A stretch of 45,990 bases of DNA, from positions 1 through 45,990 of the forward strand of contig NZ_JACJQG010000078.1 in NCBI RefSeq assembly GCF_014696435.1. Direction: 5' to 3'. This DNA is from Calothrix anomala FACHB-343. GTDB lineage: Bacteria; Cyanobacteriota; Cyanobacteriia; Cyanobacteriales; Nostocaceae. Of this stretch, positions 42,916 to 45,990 are shown one piece after another. The position numbers and the translations under genes were made by a program. Below the pieces are notes generated by a model, which saw only the letters and a program-made list of their open reading frames with translations, searched no databases and was not told the DNA's origin. Numbering within the stretch: position 1 is the first letter of the stretch; every line of letters starts with the position of its first letter.

Positions 42916-44016
42916 TTGCAACCAATTAACCTTTTTGAATACGAACAGCTAGCAACACAGCACCTCTCACAAATGGCGCTGGATTATTACAGTAGCGGCG
43001 CGTGGGATGAAATTACATTACGAGATAACCGCGCCGCTTTTGAACGCTGGAAATTACGCCCGCGTATGTTAGTTGATGTAAGCGATCGCAATTTAACTAC
43101 ATCTATATTAGGACAGCCCCTAGCACTACCTTTACTCATCGCACCGATGGCTTTTCAATGTCTAGCCCATCCTGATGGAGAAATCGCCACAGCCAAAGCA
43201 GCCGCTTCCGCAGGTGTTGGGATGGTTTTGAGTACTTTAGCCACGAAAACTATTGAAGAAGTCGCAGCCGTGGGGCAAAATTTTCCCAACGCTCTGCAAT
43301 GGTTTCAGTTGTATATACATAAAGATAGAGGTTTAACTCGCGCTTTAGTCGAAAGAGCCTACACCGCAGGTTACAAAGCATTATGTCTGACGGTAGATGC
43401 ACCTTTACTCGGACAAAGAGAACGCGATCGCCGTAACGAATTTTCTTTACCATTAGGTTTACAAGCTGCCAATATTGCAACTATCAAAGACTTAGATATT
43501 CCCCATGCCCAAGGGGAATCTGGCTTATTTACTTACTTTGCCGAACAACTCAACCCCGCCTTGACTTGGAAAGATTTAGCATGGTTGCAATCAATTTGTC
43601 CTCTACCCTTGGTAATAAAAGGTATCTTACGCGGAGATGATGCTATACGTGCAGTAGAGTGCGGAGTCAAGGCAATTATTGTCTCTAATCATGGTGGCAG
43701 ACAATTAGATAGTGCGATCGCATCTTTAGATGCCTTAGCAGAGATTGTCACTGCTGTAGATAATCGAGCTGAAATACTAGTAGATGGGGGTATTCGCCGG
43801 GGTACAGATATTCTCAAAGCCTTAGCATTAGGCGCAAAAGCAGTACTCATCGGCCGCCCAATTTTATGGGGACTAGCTGTGGCTGGAGAAGTTGGTGTAT
43901 CTCGTATCCTCACAATGTTAGAAAATGAGTTCAGCCTAGCTATGGCTTTGAGCGGCTGTCAAAAGCTACAGGATATCGATTCTTCTTTAATTACTCTTCC
44001 TCATGGCTCTAAATAA
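42916..44016 (+). CDS. FMN-dependent alpha-hydroxy-acid oxidase (lactate/glycolate oxidase type)
   Basis: Oxidises an L-2-hydroxy acid with O2 to the keto acid and H2O2. The 366 residues start with TTG 42916. The active-site residues of the GOX/LOX family are visible: Tyr24/25 (DYYSSGAWDE), Y133 (QLYIHKD), K235 (VIKGILRG), and H259 and R262 (SNHGGRQ). Heterocystous cyanobacteria have an L-lactate oxidase of this family thought to remove O2 near nitrogenase; the substrate cannot be settled from sequence. A tRNA-Leu gene follows. Confidence 0.93.
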   Translation: MQPINLFEYEQLATQHLSQMALDYYSSGAWDEITLRDNRAAFERWKLRPRMLVDVSDRNLTTSILGQPLALPLLIAPMAFQCLAHPDGEIATAKAAASAGVGMVLSTLATKTIEEVAAVGQNFPNALQWFQLYIHKDRGLTRALVERAYTAGYKALCLTVDAPLLGQRERDRRNEFSLPLGLQAANIATIKDLDIPHAQGESGLFTYFAEQLNPALTWKDLAWLQSICPLPLVIKGILRGDDAIRAVECGVKAIIVSNHGGRQLDSAIASLDALAEIVTAVDNRAEILVDGGIRRGTDILKALALGAKAVLIGRPILWGLAVAGEVGVSRILTMLENEFSLAMALSGCQKLQDIDSSLITLPHGSK

Positions 44017-44028
44017 TTAGAAAAGTAC

Positions 44029-44058
44029 TTGTCAGAAACCAAATGAATATATTATGAT
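44029..44058 (+). promoter_or_regulatory. Promoter of tRNA-Leu(CAA)
   Basis: TTGTCA (44029-44034), an 18-base spacer and TATGAT (44053-44058), placed 17 bases before the tRNA. Confidence 0.6.
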
Positions 44059-44075
44059 AGGAAAGTTGCATCCAA

Positions 44076-44159
44076 GGGCGGGTGGCGAAACTGGTAGACG
44101 CACCACACTCAAAATGTGGCGACCTTGCGGTCATAGGAGTTCGATTCTCCTCCTGCCCA
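44076..44159 (+). tRNA. tRNA-Leu(CAA)
   Basis: Acceptor GGGCGGG/CCTGCCC, long variable arm CGACCTTGCGGTCAT, anticodon stem CCACA/TGTGG and loop CTCAAAA giving CAA. T-loop TTCGATT is canonical. CCA is not encoded. Confidence 0.94.
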
Positions 44160-44635
44160 CTGTTAACAAGCTAAGTTATTAGCGCAAAGGATTTTCCACT
44201 AACTCTAGCATTCTGCATATAGTACAGACCTAAGGTATACACATATAAACCTAGGTTCCTTGATGCAGTTTTGGCAGTTGCTAAATATTTTTTCCTCAAA
44301 AGGAACTTAATTTCCGGGAAACGTGTCTATTGTCTTGTATGAAATAACATGAGTCAATATCCAAAGCTCAAACTGTAACTTTTAATATTCAGTAATTTGA
44401 CAAAATTCCAGTTATGGTTGAGCAAATGGAAGATTTAACCAGTAAATCATCACAACTTGCAAAATGTGCCATGAGTTTTATTGAGGTGCTTTATCTAGCA
44501 CTTAGATAATAATTTTGGTCAAATTTTATACTATTATTTTTGCGCCCAGCGAATATTTGTGTATAAAATTTACACAATAGATGCGTATTAACACTTGTAT
44601 TCTTTCCGTATTAAGAATGGGTTATGTGTTCAAAT
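44160..44635. other. Gap with no confident gene
   Basis: AT-rich. A 31-codon frame starts at ATG 44414 (VEQMEDLTSKSSQLAKCAM) and ends near 44509, with a GTGCT/AGCAC hairpin over its end. I cannot support it as a gene. Confidence 0.3.
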
Positions 44636-44665
44636 TTGCTAATCAAGATATGAACAATGTATAAT
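44636..44665 (+). promoter_or_regulatory. Promoter of the small basic gene
   Basis: TTGCTA (44636-44641), an 18-base spacer and a perfect TATAAT (44660-44665). Initiation near 44672 would leave a leader of about 20 bases, ending in the Shine-Dalgarno AAAGGTG at 44680-44686. Confidence 0.65.
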
Positions 44666-44691
44666 CGTAATTAATCATAAAAGGTGAACCT

Positions 44692-44913
44692 ATGAGATTA
44701 AAAAGGTGGGAATCTCCTCGCAGAGAAGGAAGAAACGATAAGGGTAAAGGCGGATCGGCGAGAAAACGGCAACTGAAAAAACAAAGGCAGATGTTGCGGC
44801 AAAAACTTAAGCAAGAAAATAAAGCAGACGATACAAAAAATAATGGTAAGAGAGAAGATAAATCAATCTTCTCTTTTTTTATTCTTATTCAAGAAGAAAA
44901 ATATTTATTTTAA
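44692..44913 (+). CDS. Small basic protein with in-frame terminator; candidate ArfA/BrfA-like ribosome-rescue factor
   Basis: 73 codons, very rich in Lys/Arg. The motif DKGKGGSARKRQ at residues 16-27 recalls the KGKGS motif of the alternative rescue factors ArfA and BrfA, followed by a basic helix (LKKQRQMLRQKLKQ). A perfect intrinsic terminator covers codons 54-63, so most transcripts should lack the stop codon at 44911. This arrangement in arfA and brfA makes expression depend on tmRNA failure (established there). The family assignment here is inference from a short motif plus architecture; no search was run. A promoter and strong Shine-Dalgarno sequence support real expression. Confidence 0.65.
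   Translation: MRLKRWESPRREGRNDKGKGGSARKRQLKKQRQMLRQKLKQENKADDTKNNGKREDKSIFSFFILIQEEKYLF
44848..44880 (+). terminator. Intrinsic terminator inside the reading frame
   Basis: AGAGAAGAT (44851-44859), a 6-base loop and ATCTTCTCT (44866-44874) pair perfectly, followed by a run of seven T including the last stem base. The stop codon of the surrounding ORF lies 31 bases further on. Confidence 0.88.
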
Positions 44914-45824
44914 ATATAAATTCTTGCCCTGTTACATAAGTAACAAATAAGCGGTTAATATAACTTAATATTATTATTTTGCTGTTAATAAATCGAATTT
45001 TTGATTACTTGAATTTATCCCCTTTAGGATAGATGCCGATATTTAGTTAGATATTGTACAGAAGTATTATCTGATTGTAAAAACCGGAAAATTTAGGTTT
45101 TATAATTTGCAATTATGCGCTGTAATCCTTGATATATAAGGCTTTGTAGATTAGATAATCAACAGATGTCAAAAATTGTAGATATTAAATATTCTAATTA
45201 ATGATCGAGTTCAGGTGCAGAAATCTCTGGATATAGGTGAATTCTCCCAGTAAATATATTTTCTTGGTTGTAATTAAAACTTTTACTAACTAGATTATTG
45301 CCATCTGTACTCATAAATCAGTCAACAAATAGCCTTAATCCTAATCAAAAATATTTAGCGATCGCTATTTCCATTAACCAAAATTTAACCTAATTTCCTA
45401 TTCTCTGTTATAAGGTATATGGCTTAACTAAATTTACAGATTTAACACACTTGGCTTAAAAAATTCAATATTAATTCGCTAAATAACCAATAAGTAATTA
45501 AACAAAATAAATCATGAAATTTAATTTATCAAAAATATGAAGTTTACATCAAGACCACATGAATCAATTATAAAGTAACTATAAAGTTTGTGATGAGTAT
45601 TGGGAAAATCCTGATATCAGCGTGTAAGCTTATATACGGTGGTAATTTATTTTAAAATACCAGGGTTACCAGAATTTACTGATAAAGCTATTGCATCTCC
45701 ATGTATGTGTGCCAGGCCATGCCATAAGCTTAGGAAGAAAATCAGCAATAGTACCACCTAATTGTTCCCGTAGGAAATGTACTAGTTGATGTTGATAATT
45801 TTGTCTTTGACACAGGAGGAATTT
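44914..45824. other. Long AT-rich gap without a supported gene
   Basis: About 900 bases, strongly A/T-rich with one HIP1 site near 45359. A minus-strand open stretch across roughly 45660-45850 reads QLVHFLREQLGGTIADF but has no start codon, and might be a gene fragment. I see no tRNA, strong terminator or repeat array. Confidence 0.4.
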
Positions 45825-45896
45825 ATGCGAGAGATAGCAATGTTGCCGACAAAAGAAGTTCTGGATTTTCCGATTACTGCCTTAGAGGATGTTTGA
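45825..45896 (+). pseudogene. Gene 5' end cut by an insertion sequence
   Basis: AGGAGGA lies 4 bases before ATG 45825, an excellent ribosome site. Twenty native codons (REIAMLPTKEVLDFPITAL) run up to 45884, where the insertion sequence begins; the frame then stops at 45896 inside the element. The rest of the gene, if kept, lies beyond the window. The family is not recognisable from 20 residues. Confidence 0.55.
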
Positions 45897-45990
45897 AAAG
45901 TCGGACAGATTGTAAAAAAGCTCTCTCGGTATACGCTGTGAATAGATAGTAGACAGCACCGAGAGAGCAACATGAGTAAAGCATATCCCA
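45885..45990 (+). mobile_element. 5' end of an insertion sequence (IS5-like)
   Basis: Begins with GAGGATGTTTGAAAAGTCGG, which resembles termini of cyanobacterial IS5-type elements. A strong hairpin, GCTCTCTCGGT/ACCGAGAGAGC (45920-45968), precedes the transposase start and may shield it from read-through. The element runs off the window end. Confidence 0.7.
45972..45990 (+). CDS. Transposase, first six codons only
   Basis: ATG 45972 opens a frame MSKAYP cut by the window edge. The N-terminus and the position after the element's hairpin fit an IS5/IS4-type transposase. Confidence 0.6.

Follow-up and report, generated by a model that had tools for sequence, protein, structure and literature searches.

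The small gene for a basic protein described here, from Calothrix anomala FACHB-343, has a reading frame that stays open into an intrinsic-terminator hairpin, and this stop-less form is found in at least 21 cyanobacterial families. It lies in a window (the whole stretch of DNA analysed) of 45,990 nucleotides, which is contig C121 of a 9.24-Mb genome. Judged from the comparison of relatives, the non-stop architecture of the gene is very nearly certain. We consider it probable that the complete explanation also holds, namely that the gene is a non-stop-encoded, tmRNA-repressed back-up ribosome rescue factor; the rescue activity of the product is something we infer from the regulatory logic and from the size, charge and motif of the protein. 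The family was found through its gene architecture. It is like ArfA and BrfA in layout and probably also in logic.

All features of the gene are on the forward strand. The ORF extends from the ATG at 44692 to the TAA at 44911-44913 and has 73 codons, of which codons 17-22 (44740-44757) encode KGKGGS, an ArfA-like motif seen in the ORF translation and in a 40-row alignment. A Shine-Dalgarno-like AAAGGTG can be read directly from the sequence at 44680-44686. In these respects the original prediction, which was made from the sequence of the window alone, was accurate. It had also named a promoter, TTGCTA-18-TATAAT. This promoter-like element is present at 44636-44665, with 10 of 12 matches, but such sites occur at chance level in the region (13 found, compared to 10.6 +/- 2.5 expected from shuffles) and among ten upstream regions inspected only L001 and L002 carry it and L126 carries a variant. 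A tRNA-Leu(CAA) gene is located upstream of the gene in the window. Of 35 loci that were scanned for tRNAs, 29 have one in their 1.5-kb flanks.

The first part of the ORF, at 44692-44811, is a conserved 40-residue core that we propose to be the functional part. It is followed by a variable hydrophilic linker (44812-44850), which is still coding and free of in-frame stops, and then by the in-frame hairpin with its T7 run (44851-44880), where the 3' end of the mRNA is predicted to lie. The frame past the terminator, up to the stop (44881-44913), is predicted to be mostly untranscribed. The hairpin arms AGAGAAGAT (44851-44859) and ATCTTCTCT (44866-44874) form 9 bp around a 6-nt loop (44860-44865), and the T run occupies 44874-44880. 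Hairpin and T run are placed exactly where they had been predicted, in frame and upstream of the stop; the spacing is 30 bases (44881-44910) and not 31. Folding of 44840-44885 gave −15.3 kcal/mol compared to −6.4 +/- 2.0 for 200 shuffles, none of which was as good (z −4.4). A terminator scan of 43500-45990 returned this hairpin as its one site. Shuffles give 1.5 sites on average, and a single hairpin by itself therefore proves nothing. As far as sequences can tell, it is conservation in relatives that shows the in-frame hairpin not to be a product of chance.

Orthologues were searched for a conserved in-frame terminator, as had been suggested for the original prediction, and the terminator is kept in 21 cyanobacterial families. 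The hairpin and a T-rich tract end before the first in-frame stop in 193 of 202 distinct loci. The other nine consist of three loci without a hairpin, one that is cut short, and five classed the other way. Four of these five are broken or shifted copies; the fifth, L044, has its stop beyond the 420 nt that were read, and when it is read to 700 nt the stop falls after the hairpin. Counted phylum-wide with one locus per genome, the first stop comes after the hairpin in 89 of 93 genomes: at least 9 nt past it in 85 (21 families, 50 genera) and 0-8 nt past it in 4, where the mRNA might just include the stop. No hairpin was found in three more genomes (one at a contig end), and one has a broken start. 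Related rows are not independent in any count of loci, genomes or phages given here. Two counter-examples, L077 (41 codons from the core start) and L245 (50 codons), have an ordinary stop and no hairpin was found in them, so the stop-less architecture is not indispensable.

The reading frame was compared to its alternatives in 194 of the 202 loci, leaving out L077, L245 and L086 (no hairpin), L080 (contig end) and L082, L084, L088 and L244 (broken or shifted). Between codon 41 and the end of the hairpin, none of the 194 loci has a stop in frame 0, although shuffles predict only 83 to be free of stops, and stops occur in 51 and 167 loci in frames 1 and 2. From the hairpin end to the first stop, the mean distance in frame 0 (18.0 codons) is similar to that in the other frames (16.7 and 14.9), and the position of the stop varies in relatives. 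Across 442 locus pairs with equal hairpin coordinates and 75-97% identity, pN/pS rises from 0.05 in the core to 0.38 in the linker and 0.44 in the hairpin, and reaches 0.85 past it. Nucleotide identity drops to 59% after the hairpin; this value and the pN/pS of 0.85 were taken over 12 codons beginning about 9 nt past it. Synonymous change is halved in the hairpin (0.22 versus 0.41-0.45). By the pattern of pN/pS together with the open frame, coding selection therefore reaches the terminator and largely ends there. A hairpin of −12 kcal or better is present at 90-330 nt in 190 of the 194 loci, and the same stem position pairs as G-C, A-T, T-A or C-G across loci, these pairs being taken from each sequence's own fold and so paired by construction. 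The hairpin detector did not respond to E. coli arfA, and so it misses some real cases.

Searches with the window protein gave no match in Pfam, NCBIfam or the PDB, and 40 family members gave none beyond chance level in Pfam and NCBIfam; five members had no match in PHROGs at 0.001. A PDB profile match to nucleolar protein 14 (E 0.073) and an Rfam match to psbJ (22 bits, compared to a cut-off of 53) were both set aside as chance-level. The family protein is present in 84 of 99 related genomes. The search itself gives 86 at E up to 0.1, from which G067 and G093 were discounted (E 0.014 and 0.064; L085 and L087) as the core query finds nothing there. The 84 include G032, G042 and G050, in which the copy is shifted or broken or differs at its N terminus; L086, the weak second match of G066, was not counted as a member. 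Genome G005 carries a second, decayed copy (L088), and in genome G044 an identical protein is encoded by two loci, L025 and L089, in opposite orientation about 13 kb apart. Among 386 genomes sampled across the phylum, profile A1 finds the protein in 93, and the same tally is obtained with A3, a profile that includes phage rows and leaves out A1 rows 24 and 32. Absences in this survey are soft because no more than 16 to 18 candidates per genome were scored in its first look. The GTDB contig set has 365 places with a family match. We take the best 80 of the 365 to be all cyanobacterial by title or genus name, and the closest named match among these 80 is Calothrix brevissima NIES-22, at 97% identity.

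Alignment A1 has 40 rows, two of which (24 and 32) have wrong first residues that were guessed and are omitted in A4. Its 17 invariant positions lie in the segment LKRWESPRREGRNDKGKGGSARKRQLKKQ and in the helix after it. K17 and G18 are invariant in all 40 rows, and most of the host rows have KGKGG or KGRGG, so that the KGKG motif of the original prediction is retained in orthologues. Loss of this motif or of the hairpin among orthologues had been named as grounds for rejecting the prediction, and the comparison did not reject it on those grounds. AlphaFold2 places a single helix at residues 21-49, after the KGKGG loop, with confidence up to about residue 40 (mean pLDDT 73, pTM 0.40).

Cores of this type are also found in cyanophages. 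The window protein alone matches no phage record (none at E up to 1 in the phage and plasmid collections), and the phage link was made through profile matches in viral contigs. Profile A1 identified 4 viral contigs with core-only ORFs (tblastn 3e-13 to 2e-9, values that are relative to candidate stretches only). Proteins from two of these contigs match 8 of 50,697 phage records, from 6 different phages, at E 2-4 and 0.008-7, and all 8 are cyanophages of Synechococcus, Prochlorococcus or Acaryochloris. The same 8 are matched more strongly by phage-type queries (S-CREM1 at 1e-5, DSL-LC02 at 2e-5), and the S-SSM4 protein as query finds DSL-LC02 at 2e-6. In IMG/VR, A3 found 21 loci and a phage-only profile found 32, the two sets overlapping. 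Among plasmids, the viral core as query gave one weak match, an ORF of a Gloeobacter plasmid (E 6), which was kept only for its good alignment. Of ten proteins scanned in the neighbourhood, seven have a match to a PHROG family, and L292 adjoins a baseplate hub/tail lysozyme gene and a 2OG-Fe(II) oxygenase gene, the same as in S-SSM4. Host and phage cores share K4, E7, P9, R10, R14, N15 and Q27; because of these residues and the host range, homology of the two is likely. KSPKRS stands in place of the KGKG motif in 10 of the 17 phage rows of A5, and the fact that many phage copies do not keep the motif is a point against our explanation.

Removal of 31 duplicates from 63 viral and phage loci left 32 distinct copies. 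The majority of these (26/32) have an ordinary stop within 52 codons with no hairpin found before it, four are clearly stop-less and host-like, and two (L336 and L337) are doubtful, with a stop 4 nt after the hairpin and a short T run. As phage homologues mostly extend little beyond the core and end at an ordinary stop, the core of about 40 residues would be the working part, and the linker and hairpin a regulatory addition. A phage core with an ordinary stop would also escape tmRNA control. We hold evenly balanced a wider, joint reading, in which the family would be a phylum-wide cyanobacterial rescue class unrelated to ArfA, BrfA (by description), ArfT and ArfB, the phage core would be a rescue factor freed from host tmRNA control in infection, and one phage lineage (L303, L304, L309-L311) would keep or have re-evolved the stop-less form. 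Phage-borne rescue factors have precedent, as a pelagiphage carrying ArfA has been reported (PMC12753301). In the case of L303, a promoter-like TTGACA-17-TATATT (11/12; L303:3145-3173) has its start within the in-frame hairpin of the terminator, and the ORF that follows (L303:3197-3424) starts inside the extent of the stop-less reading frame. Two diverged cores, L294 and L295, are found about 7 kb apart on one 119 kb IMG/VR contig.

Genes of comparable layout have been described in other bacteria. The B. subtilis gene for BrfA has a terminator inside its coding region, and its product is reported to be seen only without SmpB (PMC6881298). For both BrfA and ArfA, the non-stop mRNA is described as a substrate of trans-translation whose product is tagged and degraded (PMC6881298, PMC6299226, PMC8012679). 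E. coli arfA mRNA is reported to be cut by RNase III (PMC8012679), and a conserved hydrophobic N-terminal part of ArfA is reported to bind RF2 (PMC5378476).

The original prediction had called the gene a functional counterpart of arfA and brfA. Comparison of relatives lends strong support to a stop-less gene, but orthology to ArfA was not found by sequence. ArfA (E. coli YhdL, PF03889) is described as a small basic protein with a KGKG-type motif and a hairpin before the stop, made from a tmRNA-repressed non-stop mRNA (PMC6299226, PMC8012679), and at the sequence level the family shares the KGKGS-type motif in a basic segment and the hairpin or terminator before the stop. However, neither the window protein nor the 40 members match ArfA in Pfam, and when profiles were compared, E. 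coli ArfA could be aligned over only 15 columns, those around the motif, with a probability of 2%. The family has 16 mostly charged or polar residues before the motif, which is near the N terminus, and a long basic helix is predicted after it; the hydrophobic RF2-binding N-terminal part of ArfA is not seen. By sequence, then, the family is not an ArfA orthologue. BrfA (B. subtilis YqkK) is alike in its intrinsic terminator within the coding region and in length, with about 62 translated codons compared to about 63 here; compared by description only, it differs in its N-terminal helices and in being reported from a subset of Bacillaceae (PMC6881298). ArfA and BrfA themselves have been termed convergent in one report (PMC6881298) and homologous, at 21.5% identity, in another (PMC11633108). 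ArfT of Francisella is described as having about 40 residues, as in the phage core, and a KKGGSTNKK-type basic segment, but arfT is reported to lack a terminator before the stop and to occur only in close Francisella species (PMC6299226). An ordinary stop with no preceding terminator is a trait of most phage copies and not of the host copies. ArfB (YaeJ) differs in having its own catalytic GGQ domain; the family has no Pfam match, and GGQ is absent from 39 of the 40 A1 rows, the remaining row having RGGQ in place of the KGGS motif.

In the mechanism that we propose, transcription would end at the in-frame terminator, and the resulting mRNA, which would contain no stop codon, would yield a short basic protein. 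When trans-translation is working, tmRNA-SmpB would rescue the ribosomes at the mRNA end, and the product would be tagged with ANNIVKFARKEALVAA and degraded. When trans-translation is overloaded or absent, untagged protein would accumulate and serve as a back-up rescue factor. The basic KGKGG loop and the helix may enter the empty mRNA channel, and a class-I release factor, assisted by the WESPR segment at the N terminus, would release the nascent chain. The AlphaFold2 model would suit a placement with the basic tail inside the mRNA channel and WESPR close to the decoding centre, although this placement is a guess. Since there is no conserved GGQ, the protein would need RF1 or RF2.

The most serious competitor of this mechanism agrees that the gene is non-stop and tmRNA-repressed and makes its product another binder of ribosomes or RNA, such as a translation inhibitor, a hibernation factor, or an inhibitor or sensor of trans-translation. 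All of the comparative evidence bears on regulation and selection, and no homology to any rescue factor was found in Pfam, NCBIfam, the PDB or the ArfA profile comparison. Phage copies could serve host take-over. L077 (genome G083), a host copy that lacks the hairpin and ends at an ordinary stop shortly past the core, is directly upstream of an ORF that is presumably RimM, which suggests ribosome biology in general. On the other hand, ArfA and BrfA, which have exactly such a gene layout together with a basic ribosome-channel segment, are rescue factors, and we regard a different binding function as rather unlikely.

The rescue systems of the host genomes were surveyed as well. The window genome encodes a full-length tmRNA bearing the tag ANNIVKFARKEALVAA, SmpB, RF2 and a second release-factor-like gene, and also a separate ArfB gene (NF006718). 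That the host already has ArfB, and that the factor and ArfB are not complementary, is a further point against the rescue explanation. Complementarity was not found over the 386 genomes: 43 carry both, 50 the factor only, 76 ArfB only and 217 neither, with the absences soft. Family f41 makes up 58 of the 76 ArfB-only genomes and none of the 93 factor-bearing genomes; the factor was not found in it even though the core is carried by phages of Synechococcus and Prochlorococcus. Pfam ArfA (PF03889) was found in 0/99 related genomes (the E. coli control was positive), in agreement with a published survey of Cyanobacteriota (n=162) whose table lists arfA in 0, arfB in 90 and rqcH in 161 (PMC11633108 Table 1). 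Because ArfB was not found in the 50 factor-only genomes and ArfA was found in none of the 99 relatives, the factor may be the sole Arf-type back-up in those 50 of 386 genomes.

The original prediction had known of no described member in cyanobacteria, and a search of the open-licence PMC literature yielded no account of such a factor from either cyanobacteria or cyanophages. If the protein is active, the self-regulating circuit of ArfA and BrfA would have one more origin in this family, and its phage copies would connect ribosome rescue with cyanobacterial infection. The architecture also provides a search rule, namely conserved small basic ORFs whose frame is open into a terminator.

An ordinary small gene could also have a terminator overlapping its coding end through genome compaction, or the ORF could be a leader with an attenuator, and in either case the stop-containing product would be the functional one. 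The downstream neighbours offer some support for this: in 47 of the 77 loci with a downstream ORF of at least 90 aa, the next gene belongs to one same-strand cluster, and six examples are 450-559 nt away. The other 30 neighbours fall in 23 further clusters, however, and 18 of the 77 are on the opposite strand. This variety, together with the strong protein-level selection on the core, unlike that of a leader peptide, weakens the leader or attenuator idea. The frame after the hairpin is conserved in neither sequence nor length, which argues against a functional product that includes it. As a control, 162 distinct ORFs of at least 120 aa (family excluded) were taken from the flanks of relatives, and 1 of them shows such a layout, namely a terminator-like hairpin that reaches −12 kcal or better and whose T tract falls within the 120 nt preceding the stop. 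Of the 6 long family ORFs met in the flanks, the identical test picked up only 3, probably because the hairpin can sit further from the stop. Taken together, we consider an ordinary gene or leader very unlikely. Least probable of all is that the hairpin of a still non-stop gene is mainly a ribonuclease cleavage site and not a terminator, as the RNase III cut reported for E. coli arfA (PMC8012679) might suggest, because host loci have a T-rich tract after the hairpin (the scan's own criterion; T7 in the window).

In several marine cyanophage copies (L255, L333-L337), a hairpin of 11-15 bp abuts or nearly abuts the stop and no long T tract follows; a processing site is possible there, and these copies lend the cleavage idea what support it has. 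In the window itself, at 45826-45990, an ORF beginning MREIAMLPTKEVLDFPITALEDV is cut after 23 codons, with a stop at 45894-45896. It resembles the downstream neighbour found in 47 of 77 relatives, which we take to be of a WecG/TagA-like family. From about 45897 to the contig end, the window looks like an inserted element.
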